DNA of 11,251 nt, taken from contig JALFGI010000257.1 of assembly GCA_022777455.1 (NCBI GenBank), positions 1 to 11,251 on the forward strand. Direction: 5' to 3'. A model generated the notes under the pieces. It ran no database searches. It had not been told where the DNA came from and was given only the letters and a program-made list of their open reading frames with translations. Of this stretch, positions 3,022 through 11,251 are shown one piece after another; position 1 is the first letter of the stretch, and every line of letters starts with the position of its first letter. Both the position numbers and the translations under genes were made by a program. Source of the stretch: Clostridiales bacterium. GTDB lineage: Bacteria > Bacillota_A > Clostridia > Oscillospirales > Oscillospiraceae.

Positions 3022-3097
3022 GCGCCAGTGGCTCAATGGATAGAGCATCGGATTCCGGTTCCGAGGGTTGGGGGTTCGAGTCCCTTCTGGCGTACCA
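3022..3097 (+). tRNA. tRNA-Arg (anticodon CCG)
   Basis: The 76-nt sequence folds as a cloverleaf with an encoded CCA. The acceptor pairs GCGCCAG with CTGGCGT, where the first pair is a G-U wobble. The D-stem is GCTC/GAGC. The anticodon stem is TCGGA/TCCGA around the loop TTCCGGT, so the anticodon at 3055-3057 is CCG, reading CGG. The T-arm is GGGGG-TTCGAGT-CCCTT with two G-U pairs. A promoter precedes it and a terminator follows directly. Confidence 0.95.
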
Positions 3098-3341
3098 AAA
3101 ACGGGTCATCCCATTCGGGATGGCCCGTTTTTGATGTGTCAGGCGGGACTCGAACCATTTCATGCAGATGTCCGGTGGACATCTGCTCGGCGGCGGCTGG
3201 ACGACGCCGACTCCTTAGTGTAACGAGTCCCTTCTGGCGTACCGGCAACGAGTCGCCCTATCGGGATGGCCCGTTTTTGATGTGTCAGGGGGACTCGAAC
3301 CATTTCATGCAGATGTCCGGTGGACATCTGCCCGGCGGCGG
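3077..3341. repeat. Imperfect tandem duplication containing a broken tRNA 3' end
   Basis: Unit one (3077-3196) begins inside the tRNA T-arm; unit two (3224-3341) repeats it about 147 bases later with a few substitutions and one small gap. Each unit holds the last 20 bases of the tRNA up to ACC, a terminator-like stem (degenerate on its left arm in unit two), an inverted T-arm sequence (GGGACTCGAACC), and a perfect hairpin with 10-bp arms (GCAGATGTCC/GGACATCTGC at 3164-3186 and 3309-3331). Only the first tRNA is complete. The second is a remnant of about 20 bases and cannot fold as a tRNA. Confidence 0.85.
3098..3132 (+). terminator. Intrinsic terminator after tRNA-Arg
   Basis: AAAAACGGG and CATCCC pair with GGGATG and CCCGTTTTT around an ATTC loop; one unpaired or mismatched position (T/G) separates the two helices. 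The stem ends in five T residues. It starts at the base after the encoded CCA. Confidence 0.9.
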
Positions 3342-3369
3342 ATTGGGCGGTATACGGTTCGTCCATCTC

Positions 3370-3529
3370 GTAGGGAACGGCCTGTGTGCCGTTCCGCCCA
3401 GCCCCGGTATTTGCACGGTACGATGAAGGGTATTCCGTCCGTTCAAACCGCGTCCCATTCAACCGGATATTCCGGCCCGTTAGGTTATGGCCGCTGTGCG
3501 GACGGAACGGCACATAGGCCGTTCCCTAC
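3370..3529. repeat. MITE/REPIN-like element, copy A (160 bp)
   Basis: Both ends carry near-identical inverted sequences of about 28 bases (GTAGGGAACGGCC... and its complement). Each end folds by itself into a hairpin with an 8-bp stem (GGAACGGC/GCCGTTCC). The core matches copy B (10725-10895) in the same orientation. TTCGTCCA occurs on both sides (3358-3365 and 3533-3540). No open frame of substance lies inside, so it is non-autonomous. Confidence 0.85.
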
Positions 3530-3684
3530 AGATTCGTCCAACATAATCCCATTCTTCCTACCGCCAAAGTACAATTTCTCCCCTTGGTGGATTCACCCGA
3601 AGGGAACGGGGCACATTCAGTCAAACACACAAATATGGCAGGGAAAATTCTCTGCTGTCCGGGGGATTTTTCTGAGAAAAAGGG
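3530..3684. other. Intergenic tail of copy A and upstream region of cooC
   Basis: It holds the shared tail motif (ACCGCCAAAGTACAATTT, 3560-3577), located 30 bases after the element end, as in the other copies. A short A/T palindrome, TTTTTCT-G-AGAAAAA, lies at 3667-3681. No gene is seen in this stretch. Confidence 0.5.
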
Positions 3685-3724: not shown

Positions 3725-3782
3725 GATATGGGTGCCCGTGCGCCCTTTTGATGCGCCAATTTACGCAAAGGAAGCATTTATT

Positions 3783-4553
3783 ATGGCTACACCCCATACC
3801 ATCGCAGTCGCCGGCAAGGGCGGCGTGGGCAAAACCACCACCTGCGGTATGATCATTGATTATCTGTGCAAGAAGCACGCGGGCCCCGTTCTGGTGGTGG
3901 ACGCGGATGCCAACTCCAATCTGAACGAAGTGCTTGGCGTGGAGGCGGAAGTCTCTTTGGGCCAGATTCGGGAGGAAATGGCCCAGGCGGAGCTGAAGGG
4001 CACCATTCCCAAGGGCATGACCAAGGCGGACTATGCCGAGATGAAATTCAACGATGCCCTGATCGAAGAGGACGACTTCGACATGCTCATCATGGGCCGC
4101 ACCCAGGGCAAGGGCTGCTATTGTTATGTCAACGGCGTGCTCAAGGCCCAGGTGGACAAATACGCCAAGAATTATTCCTACATCGTCATGGACAACGAGG
4201 CCGGCCTGGAGCATGTGGCCCGGGGCACCCTGCCCCATGTGGACACCATGCTGCTCATCTCCGACTGCTCCCGCCGGGGCATTCAGGCGGTGGCACGGCT
4301 GGCGGAAATGATCCACGAAATGGAGCTCAATCCCACGCAGATGGGCCTGATCGTCAACCGGGCCCCCGGCGGCGTGCTGGAGGACGGCGTGAAGGCCGAA
4401 ATTGAAAAGCACGGCCTGACGCTCTTCGGCGTGCTGCCCCAGGACGACGCGGTTTACCGCTGCGACTGCAACGGCGAGCCTTCCGCCCTTCTTCCGGATT
4501 CCGACGACATGAAGAGCGCCCTGAAGGGAATCCTGCAGAACATCGGCCTGTAA
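3783..4553 (+). CDS. cooC: CooC/AcsF-type nickel-insertion ATPase (CODH/ACS maturation)
   Basis: A 256-residue soluble MinD/SIMIBI-class ATPase. The deviant Walker A (GKGGVGKTT, residues 11-19) carries the signature lysine of this class, VVDADANSNL (38-47) is the switch region, and MDNEAGLEH starts at about 136. A CxC pair at C112/C114 matches, as I recall, the CxC used by CooC dimers to bind nickel or zinc. Such proteins use ATP to load Ni into CO dehydrogenase (CooC) or acetyl-CoA synthase (AcsF); its location with acsB rather than acsA makes the AcsF role attractive, but sequence alone does not decide it. A second CxC (C227/C229) near the C-terminus is unusual in my memory of the family. 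The start at 3783 has AAAGGAAG about nine bases upstream; an earlier ATG at 3732 lacks one. It heads the gene cluster behind its own promoter. Confidence 0.92.
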   Translation: MATPHTIAVAGKGGVGKTTTCGMIIDYLCKKHAGPVLVVDADANSNLNEVLGVEAEVSLGQIREEMAQAELKGTIPKGMTKADYAEMKFNDALIEEDDFDMLIMGRTQGKGCYCYVNGVLKAQVDKYAKNYSYIVMDNEAGLEHVARGTLPHVDTMLLISDCSRRGIQAVARLAEMIHEMELNPTQMGLIVNRAPGGVLEDGVKAEIEKHGLTLFGVLPQDDAVYRCDCNGEPSALLPDSDDMKSALKGILQNIGL

Positions 4554-4731: not shown

Positions 4732-5673
4732 ATGGCTTTTACACCCAAGAAGGTGGCATACCGCGGCGCCATCAACGCTGTCACCCTGGGCACCGGTGAT
4801 AAGGCAATCGTCATCGGTGGTCAGAACGTACTGCCCTTCTACACCTTCGATGCTCCCATCGAGAACGCACCCAAGATCGGTGTGGAAATCTCCGACTGCG
4901 CTTCCGAGTGGACCGCTCCCGCGCTGAAGGAATTCTACGCCGGCTGCACCACCATGGTTGACTACGCCAAGAAGGCGGAGACCATGCCCGGCGCCGACTT
5001 CCTGTGCCTGCACTTCGAGTCCGCCGATCCCAACGGTGCCAACCGTCCTGTCGCTGACTGCGTCGCCGATGCCAAGGCAGTGGCCGAGGCCGTTACCATG
5101 CCCATCGTGATCATGGGCTGCAAGAACATCGAGAAGGACGGCGAGCTGTTCTCCAAGATCGCCGAGGCCCTGCAGGGCAAGAATATCCTGGTGCTCTCCG
5201 CCCGCAGCGAAGACTACAAAACCGTCGGTGCTTCCGTCGCCCTGGCTTACGGCCAGAAGGTTGGCGCCGAGACCGCTGACGACATCAACCTGGCCAAGCA
5301 GCTGAACATCATGCTCAAGGGCCTGACCGTTCCCGCCTCCTCCATCGTGATGAACGTGGGCACCGCTGCCGTGGGCTACGGCTATGAGTACGTGGCCTCC
5401 ACCCTGGACCGCGTCCGTCTGGCCGCTCTGGCTCAGTCCGATGCCGACCTGCAGATGCCCATCATCGCCCCCGTGTCCACCGACACCTGGAGCGTGAAGG
5501 AAGCTACCGCTTCCGAAGAGGATGAGCCCACCTGGGGCAACGCCGAAGAGCGCGCCATCGGCATGGAAGTTTCCACCGCTGCCGCCAACCTGACCGGCGG
5601 CGCCGATGCCGTGATCATGCGCCATCCCGCGGCTGTTGCAACCATTAAGCAGTTCATCACTGAGCTGGTCTGA
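4732..5673 (+). CDS. acsD: Corrinoid iron-sulfur protein small subunit (CODH/ACS delta subunit)
   Basis: A 313-residue protein, near the usual length of about 310-320. It forms a TIM-barrel that, with AcsC, holds the cobalamin which carries the methyl group from methyl-THF to acetyl-CoA synthase. Recognisable family segments are FDAPIENAPKIGVEISD (about residues 39-55), DFLCLHFESADPN, MPIVIMGCKN and SSIVMNVGTAAVGYGYEY. It is cytoplasmic, with no signal peptide. AGGGGGA lies about nine bases before the ATG. The next gene starts 20 bases after its stop, so the two corrinoid protein subunits are clearly co-transcribed. Codon use is strongly biased to C- or G-ending and a few preferred T-ending codons (GCC, AAG, CTG, GCT), fitting high expression. 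Confidence 0.96.
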   Translation: MAFTPKKVAYRGAINAVTLGTGDKAIVIGGQNVLPFYTFDAPIENAPKIGVEISDCASEWTAPALKEFYAGCTTMVDYAKKAETMPGADFLCLHFESADPNGANRPVADCVADAKAVAEAVTMPIVIMGCKNIEKDGELFSKIAEALQGKNILVLSARSEDYKTVGASVALAYGQKVGAETADDINLAKQLNIMLKGLTVPASSIVMNVGTAAVGYGYEYVASTLDRVRLAALAQSDADLQMPIIAPVSTDTWSVKEATASEEDEPTWGNAEERAIGMEVSTAAANLTGGADAVIMRHPAAVATIKQFITELV

Positions 5674-5693: not shown

Positions 5694-7979
5694 ATGGCTC
5701 TGAAAGGTCTTGACATTTTTAAGCTGTCTCCCAAGAAAAACTGTAAGGAGTGCGGCAGCCCCACCTGTATGGCATTCTGCATGAAGGTGGCCCAGGGCGC
5801 TATTTCCATCGACAAGTGCCCCTACTTCTCCGATGACGCAAAGGCAATGCTCAACGAGCAGACCGCTCCCCCCATGAAGACCATCACCGTGGGCGAGCAC
5901 AAGCTGGGCGGCGAAACCGTCCTGTTCCGTCACGAGAAGACTCTGGTCAACAAGAACCTGTACGCCGTCTGCGCCTGCACCGATTGCAGCGAAGAAGCGG
6001 TGGATGCCAAGCTGGCCAATATGGCAAAGATTGACTACGAGCGCATCGGCGAGCGGATGTACGTGGAGTTCGTCTATGTTGCCAACAAGCAGTCCGATCC
6101 CGCCGTCTACGCCAAGCTGGTGGAGAAGGCCGCTGCCACCGGCCGCAGCCTGATTCTGGCCTGCTGGGATGTGGAGTGCGCCAAAGCCGCTCTGGCCGTG
6201 GCCGGTAAGGACGTCATTCTCGATGGCGCCACCCCCGACAACTGGGAGGCCATGAACGCCGTTGCCACCGCTGCGGGTGTGACCCTGGGCGTTTGCGCTC
6301 CCAACGTGTCCGACCTGTATGACCTGGTGAAGAAGCTGGAAGGCGCCGGCAACAAGAACCTGGTTCTGGATGTCACCGGTGAGACTGCCAAGGAGACCCT
6401 GGCCGCTGCCGTTCAGGTCCGCCGTACCGCTCTGGCTGACGGTGACCGCAGCTTCGGCTATCCCTCCATCGTGAACGTCGCCAAGCTGGCCAAGGGCAAC
6501 AAGCACCTGCAGACCGCTTACGCCTCCATGTTCACCGAGAAGTACGCTTCCATCATCGTCATGGAGGATATGGACTACGCTCAGGCTCTGCCTCTGTACG
6601 GCCTGCGCCAGAACATCTACACCGATCCTCAGAAGCCCATGAAGGTGGAATCCAAGATTTATCCCCTGAACGGTGCCGACGAGAACAGCCCCTGCGCTCT
6701 GACCGTGGACTTCGCTCTGACCTACTTCCTGGTCTCCGGCGAACTGGAGCGCTCCAACCAGCCCGTGAACCTGATCATCACCGACGCTTCCGGCATGTCC
6801 GTTCTGACTGCCTGGGCTGCCGGCAAGTTCTCCTCCTCCACCGTCAAGAAGACCTTCGAGGCCCTGGACATCGAGAACAAGATCAAGAACCGCACCCTGA
6901 TCATCCCCGGCAAGGTTGCCGTGATGAAGGGCGAAATCCAGGAGAAGCTGCCCGGCTGGAACGTGGTGGTCGGTCCCACCGAGGCTGTCCAGCTGCCCAA
7001 GTACATGAAGGACAAGGAGTACGAGGCTGCCGCCAAGGCCGCTGCCGCAGAGAACGCCGCCAAGGCTGCTTCCACTGTGGAAGTCAAGGAGCTGTCCTTC
7101 GACGAGCTGCTGGCCACCAAGGTGCCCGCCATTGAAGTGGTGGACATGGGCGTGAAGTACGGCGGCTACAACCCCGAGTCCTCCACCTTCGTCACCATCG
7201 GCGAGCGTATCCACTGCATCGCTCCCGTGATCCGGAAGGCCATGGACGAGCGGGATCCCGCTCCCATCCTGAAGCGTGCCGCCGAGCAGATCGCTGCCGG
7301 TGCCACCTATCTGGACGTGAACATCGGACCTGCCGAGAAGGACGGTCCCGAGCGCATGATGTGGGCTGTCAAGCTGCTGCAGGAGAACTTCAACAACGTG
7401 CCTCTGGCTCTGGATACCGCCAACAAGAAGGCCATCGAAGCCGGTATCAAGGTCTACAACCGTTCCAACGGTAAGCCCATCGTCAACTCCGCCGACGCCG
7501 GCTCCCGTATCTCCTACATCGACCTGGCTGCCGCCAATGACGCCATCTGTATCGCCCTGTGCTCTGCCGACGGCATTGCCAAGGACAACGAAGAGCGCAT
7601 GATGCACTGCCGGAACATGCTGGAGCGCGGTATGTCCCGGGGCATGGAAGCCACCGACCTGTGGTTTGACCCCCTGTTCCTGGTGGTCAAGGGCATGCAG
7701 GACAAGCAGATGGAAGTTCTGGAAGCCATCAAGCTGTTCTCCAACGAGGGTCTGAAGTCCACCGGCGGTCTGTCCAACAACTCTAACGGTGCACCCAAGA
7801 AGGTCCGTCCCATCATGGACTCCGCTCTGGTTGCCATGTGCATGATGCAGGGTCTGACCTCCGCCATCGTCAACCCCAACGACCTGCGGCTGATGGAAAC
7901 CATCAAGTCCTGCGACATCTTCAAGAACCACACCCTGTACTCCGACAGCTACCTGGGCGACCGTCCCGACCTGCTGTAA
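5694..7979 (+). CDS. acsC-acsE: Fusion of corrinoid protein large subunit (AcsC) and methyl-THF:corrinoid protein methyltransferase (AcsE)
   Basis: A 761-residue protein joining two enzymes normally made from separate genes. Residues 1-440 are AcsC: an N-terminal [4Fe-4S] motif C17-x2-C20-x4-C25-x16-C42, a TIM barrel, and a C-terminal corrinoid-binding part with LRQNIYTDPQKP, LSVLTAWAAGKF-like and VVVGPTEAV segments. An Ala-rich helix (about 441-460) and a further linker (461-498) lead into AcsE at 499-761, which is 263 residues against about 262 for the free enzyme. AcsE starts with FVTIGERI and keeps LDVNIGP (D541, N543), FDPLFL and GLSN (N695, equivalent to the catalytic Asn near methyl-THF). 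It would move the N5-methyl of methyl-THF to Co(I) within one chain. The reading frame is continuous and no internal ribosome site is visible at the junction. AGGAGG precedes the start by about eight bases. Confidence 0.95.
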   Translation: MALKGLDIFKLSPKKNCKECGSPTCMAFCMKVAQGAISIDKCPYFSDDAKAMLNEQTAPPMKTITVGEHKLGGETVLFRHEKTLVNKNLYAVCACTDCSEEAVDAKLANMAKIDYERIGERMYVEFVYVANKQSDPAVYAKLVEKAAATGRSLILACWDVECAKAALAVAGKDVILDGATPDNWEAMNAVATAAGVTLGVCAPNVSDLYDLVKKLEGAGNKNLVLDVTGETAKETLAAAVQVRRTALADGDRSFGYPSIVNVAKLAKGNKHLQTAYASMFTEKYASIIVMEDMDYAQALPLYGLRQNIYTDPQKPMKVESKIYPLNGADENSPCALTVDFALTYFLVSGELERSNQPVNLIITDASGMSVLTAWAAGKFSSSTVKKTFEALDIENKIKNRTLIIPGKVAVMKGEIQEKLPGWNVVVGPTEAVQLPKYMKDKEYEAAAKAAAAENAAKAASTVEVKELSFDELLATKVPAIEVVDMGVKYGGYNPESSTFVTIGERIHCIAPVIRKAMDERDPAPILKRAAEQIAAGATYLDVNIGPAEKDGPERMMWAVKLLQENFNNVPLALDTANKKAIEAGIKVYNRSNGKPIVNSADAGSRISYIDLAAANDAICIALCSADGIAKDNEERMMHCRNMLERGMSRGMEATDLWFDPLFLVVKGMQDKQMEVLEAIKLFSNEGLKSTGGLSNNSNGAPKKVRPIMDSALVAMCMMQGLTSAIVNPNDLRLMETIKSCDIFKNHTLYSDSYLGDRPDLL

Positions 7980-8114: not shown

Positions 8115-8266
8115 CCACTGTAGGGGCGGCTCGCAGCCGCCCGCGCAGTACCGACCCACGCAATCATCCAGGTTGGGCGAATCCGCACCATGTCAGACAT
8201 GATACCATTCAACCAAACACTCACGTTCGTCAGCCGGCGGGAGGCTGATAGCCTCCCCTACAGTGG
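8115..8266. repeat. MITE/REPIN-like element, copy C (152 bp)
   Basis: The ends are a perfect 12-bp inverted repeat, CCACTGTAGGGG/CCCCTACAGTGG. Each end folds into its own hairpin, GGGCGGCT/AGCCGCCC on the left and GGGAGGCT/AGCCTCCC on the right. The architecture is that of copies A and B but the stem sequences differ. The shared tail (ACCGCAAAATTACAAAT, 8301-8317) follows about 35 bases after the end. Confidence 0.8.
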
Positions 8267-10557: not shown

Positions 10558-10724
10558 AGAAAACGCATTGTCATGCGAAAATCAAGGAACCATGATGCAT
10601 TGGAAAATTGGTATTTGGCGGGCACAAATTACGTCCACGCCATTCGTAGGGCGGATTTCTGACCCCGCCGATCAGGTTACGAAACCTGCCAGGTCGGATG
10701 AATGGAACAATGTTGGACGAATCC
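10558..10724. repeat. Left flank of copy B with an inverted tail motif
   Basis: No gene is seen. AAAATTGGTATTTGGCGG (10604-10621) is the reverse complement of the shared tail found to the right of the elements. A short GTAGGGCGG start with a GGCGG/CCGCC pairing (from 10646) looks like part of another element end. Positions from about 10690 to 10724 match, inverted, the right flank of copy A. The stretch seems to be built from nested repeat fragments. Confidence 0.5.
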
Positions 10725-10895
10725 GTAGGGAACGGCCTGCGTGCCGTTCCGCCCCGCCCCCGGAATTGGCACGGTCCGTTGAATGGGTAACAGGTGTTTT
10801 CGGTGGGGACGAACCATATTCTATTCAACCGGGCATTCCGTCCCGTCAGGTAGGTGCCGCTGCGCGGATGGAACGGCACACAGGCCGTTCCCTAC
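10725..10895. repeat. MITE/REPIN-like element, copy B (171 bp)
   Basis: Inverted ends GTAGGGAACGGCC.../...GGCCGTTCCCTAC each fold into a GGAACGGC/GCCGTTCC hairpin. The core aligns directly to copy A. TGGACGAATC occurs on both sides (10714-10723 and 10900-10909), like a target duplication though not flush with the ends. The shared tail (CCACCGCCAAATTACAATTTTT, 10924-10945) follows about 29 bases later, just before acsV. Confidence 0.85.
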
Positions 10896-10991
10896 GAAAT
10901 GGACGAATCATGCGCCGTTCAATCCACCGCCAAATTACAATTTTTCGTTTATTTGGAGAAAAAACATACCAATTGAAAGGAAACTTATCCC

Positions 10992-11251
10992 ATGAAGGTA
11001 ACCTTCCAAATTGAGGGCGGGAGCCCTGTTCAAGTTGAATGCAACGCCGGAGACAATCTTCTGGAGCTGGCCCGCCGCAGCAATGTGGCCATTGATGCCC
11101 CCTGTGGGGGCAACGGCTCCTGCGGCAAATGCAAGGTCCAGCTGATCGAGGGTCAGCTGGAATCCCCCAAGAGCCGCCATTTATCCGACGAGGAATATGA
11201 GGCTGGGTGGCGGCTGTCCTGCTGCTCCAAGGTGCTGTCGGATGTCACCGT
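10992..11251 (+). CDS. acsV: Reductive activator of the corrinoid protein (RACo/AcsV), 5' part only
   Basis: The first 86 residues are present; the gene runs off the window. They form a [2Fe-2S] ferredoxin domain: C38-x5-C44-x2-C47 in APCGGNGSCGKCKV, and a fourth ligand at C77 or C78 (RLSCCSKV). In acetogens the protein with this N-terminus followed by an ASKHA ATPase domain (RACo, DUF4445 type) uses ATP to reduce Co(II) of the corrinoid iron-sulfur protein back to Co(I). The location after acsB supports this over a plain ferredoxin, but the ATPase part is not visible. AAAGGA lies about ten bases before the ATG. It follows a strong terminator and copy B, so it needs its own promoter; I see no convincing one between 10896 and 10991. 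Confidence 0.85.
   Translation, partial: MKVTFQIEGGSPVQVECNAGDNLLELARRSNVAIDAPCGGNGSCGKCKVQLIEGQLESPKSRHLSDEEYEAGWRLSCCSKVLSDVT

Follow-up and report, generated by a model that had tools for sequence, protein, structure and literature searches.

The window analysed here is the whole of an 11,251-nucleotide stretch (contig JALFGI010000257.1 of the Clostridiales bacterium assembly GCA_022777455.1), in which acs genes lie in the order cooC-acsD-acsCE-acsB-acsV. The subject of this work is acsCE. Nucleotides 5694–7979 of the plus strand form a single stop-free frame, from ATG to TAA, that encodes 761 residues and joins AcsC, the large subunit of the corrinoid iron-sulfur protein (CFeSP, also written CoFeSP), to AcsE, its methyl-tetrahydrofolate (methyl-THF)-dependent methyltransferase (MeTr). 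The partner gene acsD adjoins it (4732–5673). A preliminary description of this DNA had proposed that one 761-residue frame carries both proteins at full length with their Fe-S and methyl-THF residues intact, and this was borne out. Pfam placed FeS at residues 13–44, CdhD at 70–436 and Pterin_bind at 520–727 (E up to 0.001); the NCBIfam AcsC model PRK04165 matched residues 1–441 with 511 bits (cut-off 306) and the AcsE model CODH_ACS_meth residues 498–754 with 465.7 bits (cut-off 370). The AcsC part passed the fold test for CFeSP and the AcsE part that for the MeTr TIM barrel; AcsE is found here inside a 761-residue chain and not in its stand-alone form of about 262 aa. In an alignment of 24 fused proteins, all 24 have the Fe-S cysteines C17, C20, C25 and C42 and the AcsE residues D541, D574, N598, D659 and N695. 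The counterparts of the last four in the Moorella enzyme 2e7f are D75, N96, D160 and N199; D75, N96 and D160 are pterin-site residues, and N199 was taken as one from the title of 2ogy.

A genome scan identified 526 stretches that encode relatives. We kept the best 80 of them, and in 79 of these 80 loci one frame ran from AcsC through the junction into AcsE. FeS, CdhD and Pterin_bind were all present in the best 120 of 7,999 scored protein matches. In the main group, the ratio of nonsynonymous to synonymous substitution rates (dN/dS) was 0.29 for the connector (414 equal-length pairs of 1,335), 0.12 for the AcsE part (1,058 pairs) and 0.39 for the AcsC part (216 pairs). The connector value indicates that this segment evolves as coding sequence; whole-codon linker lengths were forced by the cutting procedure of the script and were not used as evidence. 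Most relatives are metagenome bins, and two proteins, P0121 and P0193, resemble misassembled members, as might be expected if joined frames arose in sequencing or assembly. Given a frame uninterrupted in 79 of 80 kept loci, fused records that are not titled as metagenome-assembled genomes (e.g. L033, Pseudoflavonifractor sp. MSJ-30, and L068, POC01) and a connector with coding-type evolution, such an artefact is extremely improbable. A stop or frameshift at 7005–7190, named in the preliminary description as what would undo the fusion, is made unlikely by the frames of the relatives and by their codon-wise evolution.

A separate acsE, which the same description had proposed to look for, was not found over the cut-off in the fused-group genomes: 28 of 29 had one AcsE copy, and the twenty-ninth (G001) had two, both fused. 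Weaker matches to other pterin-domain proteins were present in 10 of the 29. The two copies in G001 belong to different fused acsCE operons (L001 and L010) on two contigs, which may be a real duplication or a mixed bin. We conclude that acsC and acsE are genuinely fused, and the fusion fixed, in one group of mostly uncultured gut bacteria of Oscillospiraceae type.

Taxa named in the record titles of the 80 kept loci are Oscillospiraceae, Faecousia, Avoscillospira, Pseudoflavonifractor, Butyricicoccus and Lachnospiraceae, and many of these titles mention gut samples. In an order sample of 295 genomes, at least 14 had an AcsC-type match among the matches listed; 4 of these were fused (G004, G013, G280 and G296), 4 had close but separate genes (G110, G136, G250 and G270) and 6 had distant AcsC-like matches. 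G110 and G136, with frames of 745 and 725 aa, were rejected as fusions, since a stop separates the two genes when the DNA is translated directly. In a family sample of 120 genomes around G270, where a joint open frame of at least 640 aa was called fused, AcsC occurred in 38 genomes: 11 fused, 26 shorter and one a 229-aa piece. Ten of the 11 fusions were also translated directly; one of the 11, G747, is cut by a contig end. Apart from their centre genome G013, no fused-length frame was present among the 22 genomes with AcsC in a class sample of 391, and no fusion among the 19 with AcsE over the cut-off in a phylum sample of 398. A search of fusion-length proteins with the AcsE region gave 6,450 matches among 7,919 candidates, and 119 of the best 120 had both the AcsC and AcsE Pfam domains. 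Four of these 120 sequences were read: P0130 and P0138 are family members, P0121 is a family piece with duplicated stretches, and P0193 joins a carboxyltransferase N-terminus to AcsE at an Ala-rich connector with a window-like end (SYLGDRPDLL) and is probably an assembly chimera. An independent fusion may exist further down the match list or in unsampled phyla. In the plasmid collection, one record covers more than 80% of the query, as two pieces at 58%.

A fused gene might still yield separate working proteins if AcsE were released by internal initiation within the connector or by cleavage. Such release would be favoured by the length of the connector, by its poorly conserved hinge and by the presence in 68 of 88 fused loci (the window plus all fetched loci minus six repeat fetches, a few rows still being identical) of an ATG at the DMGV position, 12–18 codons ahead of the GERI motif. 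However, Shine-Dalgarno sequences at connector starts are rare: one of at least 4 bases precedes the DMGV-position ATG in only 7 of 88 loci, one of at least 5 bases precedes any connector start in only 2 of 88, and in the window itself no connector start has one of at least 4 bases. The acsC start, by comparison, has a 6-base Shine-Dalgarno sequence in 80 of 86 fused loci, and 23 of 39 separate acsE genes have a start with one of at least 5 bases. A conserved internal start, which the preliminary description had also listed as a possible refutation, was rejected on this count. Several branches lack Met at the DMGV position altogether (e.g. VVDTGV and VVPQEV), and the residues of the arm that follows the hinge are conserved. 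The release of AcsE as a separate protein is therefore very unlikely.

The connector comprises residues 441–498 (58 aa). It had been described as an Ala-rich linker of about 55 residues; the length stands, whereas Ala enrichment is confined to the first 20 or so residues, after which come the hinge and, at the end, the conserved arm. From residue 441 to the GERI motif the distance is 61–63 residues in 78 of the 88 fused loci (range 44–68). An AlphaFold2 model was built from 67 rows (mean predicted local distance difference test score, pLDDT, 90.4; predicted template modelling score, pTM, 0.53); it was the second run, and the first (pLDDT 68.6) was set aside in its favour. The model predicts a helix at 442–459, a hinge at 460–468, a helix at 469–475 and an extended arm to 499 (block means 91–94). 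When mapped on the model, known CFeSP chains end at 440–443 and MeTr chains begin at 495–499. Mean column conservation was 0.57 for the helix, 0.40 for the hinge, 0.65 for the arm and 0.90 for AcsE. The conserved arm was not found in the eight free AcsE N-termini examined, which begin directly before the barrel. As modelled, the connector is not simply one flexible tail but a helix extending off the B12 domain, then a short hinge and an ordered-looking arm.

Table 1. Genes of the acs locus in the window and predicted parts of the AcsCE chain.
Feature	Position	Strand	Basis
cooC-type P-loop ATPase	3777..4553	+	Pfam AAA_31, CbiA; listed frame opens at 3732, homologue alignment begins at 3777
acsD, corrinoid protein small subunit, 313 aa	4732..5673	+	NF040759 WLP_AcsD, 465.8 bits (cut-off 430)
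acsCE fusion gene, 761 aa + stop	5694..7979	+	Frame, Pfam, NCBIfam, relatives
AcsC part, residues 1-440: 4Fe-4S domain (C17, C20, C25, C42), barrel, B12 domain	5694..7013	+	
Connector helix, residues 441-459, directly after last AcsC helix (431-439)	7014..7070	+	Model helix 442-459
Hinge, residues 460-468, lowest conservation	7071..7097	+	Model block 461-470, pLDDT 76; column conservation 0.40
Conserved arm, residues 469-498	7098..7187	+	P478, I480, Y489 invariant in 24/24; blocks 471-500, pLDDT 94, 94, 91
AcsE part, residues 499-756: methyl-THF:corrinoid protein methyltransferase TIM barrel	7188..7961	+	
acsB, acetyl-CoA synthase, 708 aa	8381..10507	+	NF040764, 999.7 bits (cut-off 800)
acsV 5' end, corrinoid reactivation protein, continues past window edge	10992..11249	+	NF040756, Pfam Fer2

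The acsV piece matches positions 1–82 of the 632 in NF040756 with 106 bits; the cut-off of 800 applies to the whole protein and cannot be reached by a fragment. The name cooC, which we take from position and family, denotes the maturation ATPase of carbon monoxide dehydrogenase (CODH) and corrinoid protein, and the gene lies 5' of acsD in most fused loci with a long enough flank.

Methylation of CFeSP is the meeting point of the two halves of the Wood-Ljungdahl pathway and requires a mobile B12 domain that visits several partners. In the mechanism we infer, a single AcsCE chain would act both as the corrinoid large subunit and as its own methylating enzyme, with AcsD supplied from the upstream gene. 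AcsE would be attached to the C-terminus of the mobile B12 domain of AcsC through the helix, hinge and arm, and AcsE dimerisation would generate an (AcsCE-AcsD)2 particle, with two copies each of AcsCE and AcsD, where every cobalt would have a methyl-THF donor site on a tether. The donor domain would swing in for methylation of Co(I) and swing out through the hinge, freeing the cobalt for acetyl-CoA synthase (AcsB) or the reactivator AcsV. The fusion would increase the local donor concentration and, provided that the chain stays whole, fix the AcsC:AcsE ratio at 1:1, so that AcsE in excess could no longer be made. In Acetobacterium woodii, where the proteins are not fused, the available text of one study describes a homodimeric AcsE that binds two CoFeSPs and presumes that extra AcsE aids assembly (PMC8407422). 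Such assembly help would be lost under a 1:1 lock.

Compared with separate AcsC and AcsE (4djd, CFeSP/MeTr; 9fzy, CODH/acetyl-CoA synthase (ACS) with CoFeSP), AcsCE has the same domains, folds, key residues and operon partners. It differs in being one chain, with the connector 441–498 and an arm lacking in the free AcsE N-termini examined. MetH likewise tethers a methyl-THF domain and a cobalamin domain in one chain, and there the tether lets the donor domain swing to the cobalt. In AcsCE, however, the order is reversed (B12 protein first), the corrinoid domain is of AcsC type with a 4Fe-4S domain, and AcsD is a partner; no homocysteine (PF02574), B12-binding_2 (PF02607) or reactivation domain was found in the chain by Pfam (E up to 0.001). 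The likeness of the folate and cobalamin domains to those of MetH is thus an analogy and not membership. Another methyltransferase joined to its corrinoid partner in an acetogen is the mtaA-mtaC fusion of Moorella thermoacetica (Mothe_c14370), as given in the available portion of its report (PMC13391211). The mta fusion serves a methanol system and its parts are of different families, not the methyl-THF/CFeSP pair.

No description of an AcsC-AcsE fusion was found in the open-licence literature searched; as far as that search extends, the parts of acsCE are ordinary and their joining is new. The fusion may bear on published surveys. Among human gut genomes of Oscillospirales with cooS and acsB, Katayama et al. 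(2024) did not detect acsE in 78% (7 of 9 genera), with genes called from the KEGG orthology (KO) assignments of METABOLIC; Faecousia is among their genera, and the accessible part of their paper offers no explanation for the undetected gene (PMC11338639). Among our best 80 of 526 loci, 8 of 8 with Faecousia in the title were fused (a set chosen by similarity to the fusion), and four Faecousia genomes tested had no other acsE over the cut-off. The fusion is probably the cause of the missed acsE calls in gut Oscillospirales. The available text of a rumen study likewise reports that acsE was required with five other genes, which retained 69 of 449 acsB-bearing genomes (PMC12449052). Criteria that demand a separate acsE, gene by gene, may misjudge bacteria of the fused group. 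In addition, a natural tether to one partner would make the CFeSP cycle directly testable in one purifiable chain.

Taken as a whole, the explanation we favour, in which a fixed acsCE fusion tethers the methyl donor and accounts for the undetected acsE, is highly probable. Several points weigh against it. The best 80 of 526 relatives were selected by similarity to the fusion and are a biased sample. One of these loci, L049 (genome G018), is interrupted by an in-frame TAG where AcsC meets the connector (L049:9327–9329). With a pTM of only 0.53, the model does not predict how the two halves sit relative to each other. In the AcsC and AcsD trees, the fused L077, L143 and L144 join the unfused L145, apart from the main fused clade. 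Three genomes (G013, G028 and G280) keep acsD-acsCE and have neither acsB nor cooS over the cut-off. Finally, that KO calling misses a fused acsE is an assumption. The TAG of L049 is surrounded by a few other unusual differences from L003 and could be a sequence error or a real re-split.

With regard to origin, acsC and acsE of the split loci lie on the same strand with 13–188 bp between their matched parts, with the exception of L151 (864 bp); in G250, G702, G705, G772 and G792, acsE is on a different contig from acsC. Since relatives mostly have acsC and acsE as separate neighbours, acsCE is a fusion of neighbouring genes. The preliminary description had taken the Moorella-type gene order as its reference. 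A Moorella-like order was rejected; the window corresponds instead to Thermoanaerobacter kivui, for which the available text gives cooC, acsD, acsC, acsE, acsB (PMC4320612), the same order with the join at the acsC/acsE boundary. If, as is probable, acsC and acsE were adjacent in the ancestor as they are in T. kivui, fusion required no rearrangement.

Trees were computed after L001–L059 had been thinned to every third locus (by which L049 dropped out) and repeat fetches and a short AcsC (L094) had been excluded. The position of L077, L143 and L144 beside L145 in the AcsC and AcsD trees, where the starred branches force two changes, points to a fusion that arose more than once, in the main clade and separately in the clade of these three. 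Consistent with two fusions, a single clade for fused AcsC was rejected (approximately unbiased test, p-AU 0.02), and the linker sequences differ between the groups. In the AcsE tree, however, all 45 fused rows formed one clade (support 100/99.9) with the unfused L145 as sister, and both groups have the same arm end (V.Y.GHDP or GHNP, then F). All three trees would fit a single fusion whose AcsE half was later transferred to another AcsC. A second, separate fusion is possible, and we hold it only tentatively.

The carbonyl branch was surveyed in 23 genomes, 20 of the fused group and 3 unfused (17 of G001–G029 and six others). acsB was over the cut-off in 20, all except G013, G028 and G280; cooS was over the cut-off in 18, the exceptions being these three, G026, and G029, where it lies in two pieces. 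Not every carrier of acsCE, then, resembles an acetogen. Unless the drafts of the three genomes are incomplete, acetyl-CoA synthesis cannot be the sole role of the fusion. The neighbours of acsCE in these genomes include cooC in L033 (G013), cooC and metF in L079 (G028), and an apparent metF end, read by eye, in L084 (G280). As a separate observation, many tested genomes have two acsB, one beside cooS and one in an acsD-acsCE-acsB-acsV operon (e.g. G003 C67, G024 C1, and G008 C12 and C44), and G017 and G019 have the cooS-linked acsB only. In L016:10054–10992 and L048:10863–11816, only the N-terminal domain is left of the acsB that lies between acsCE and acsV (312 and 317 aa, CODH_A_N alone).

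The gene pattern suggests that AcsCE may also serve methionine synthesis. More specifically, AcsCE and AcsD might also, or in strains lacking CODH/ACS only, form the folate-and-cobalamin half of a split methionine synthase, in which a methyl group would pass from MetF through AcsE and the AcsCD cobalt to a stand-alone homocysteine-methyltransferase domain; we regard this as unlikely. PF02574 was present in 27 of 30 fused-group genomes, within a MetH-length frame in only 3, and PF02607 was absent from 19 of the 30; 16 of the 30 had PF02574 as a stand-alone domain and lacked both PF02607 and a second pterin domain. These counts cover the fused group only, with no unfused control, and the bins may be incomplete. 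Of 38 fused-group genomes, 15 had a second pterin domain, as did 9 of 11 unfused ones (p 0.018, uncorrected for kinship); before G747 was reclassed as fused, the counts were 15 of 37 and 9 of 12 (p 0.051). Among solved structures, the homocysteine domain of MetH gave the best match to the stand-alone PF02574 protein of G028 (169 bits; 5dml, 57). For three stand-alone proteins the best NCBIfam match was the bifunctional homocysteine methyltransferase/MetF model (242–253 bits, below the cut-off of 453), and the MetH model scored 140–143 bits in the same test. That best match allows a different methyl source for these proteins. None of 23 genomes tested, including 10 of the 16 above, had a match to MetE (PF01717), and MetE was rejected as the partner of an orphan CFeSP. 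The available text on Dehalococcoides, where CODH is absent, similarly proposes CFeSP as a methyl donor for methionine, by direct transfer from CoFeSP to homocysteine by core-MetE (PMC7005905). Dehalococcoides has core-MetE and no acsE in that account, in contrast to the stand-alone homocysteine-methyltransferase domain and fused acsE of the present group.

Flanking the acs genes of the window, at 3369–3562, 8115–8266 and 10692–10931, are dispersed intergenic repeats that are related to one another and have long inverted arms; the GTAGGGAACGGCC type occurs at two of these places and a different hairpin at 8115. Further upstream, a tRNA-Arg (CCG) gene lies at 3022–3097, and its 3' end is repeated at 3224–3278. 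A 52-bp repeat at 3145 and 3290 lies beside this tRNA gene, and the region 3077–3341 is possibly an old integration site.

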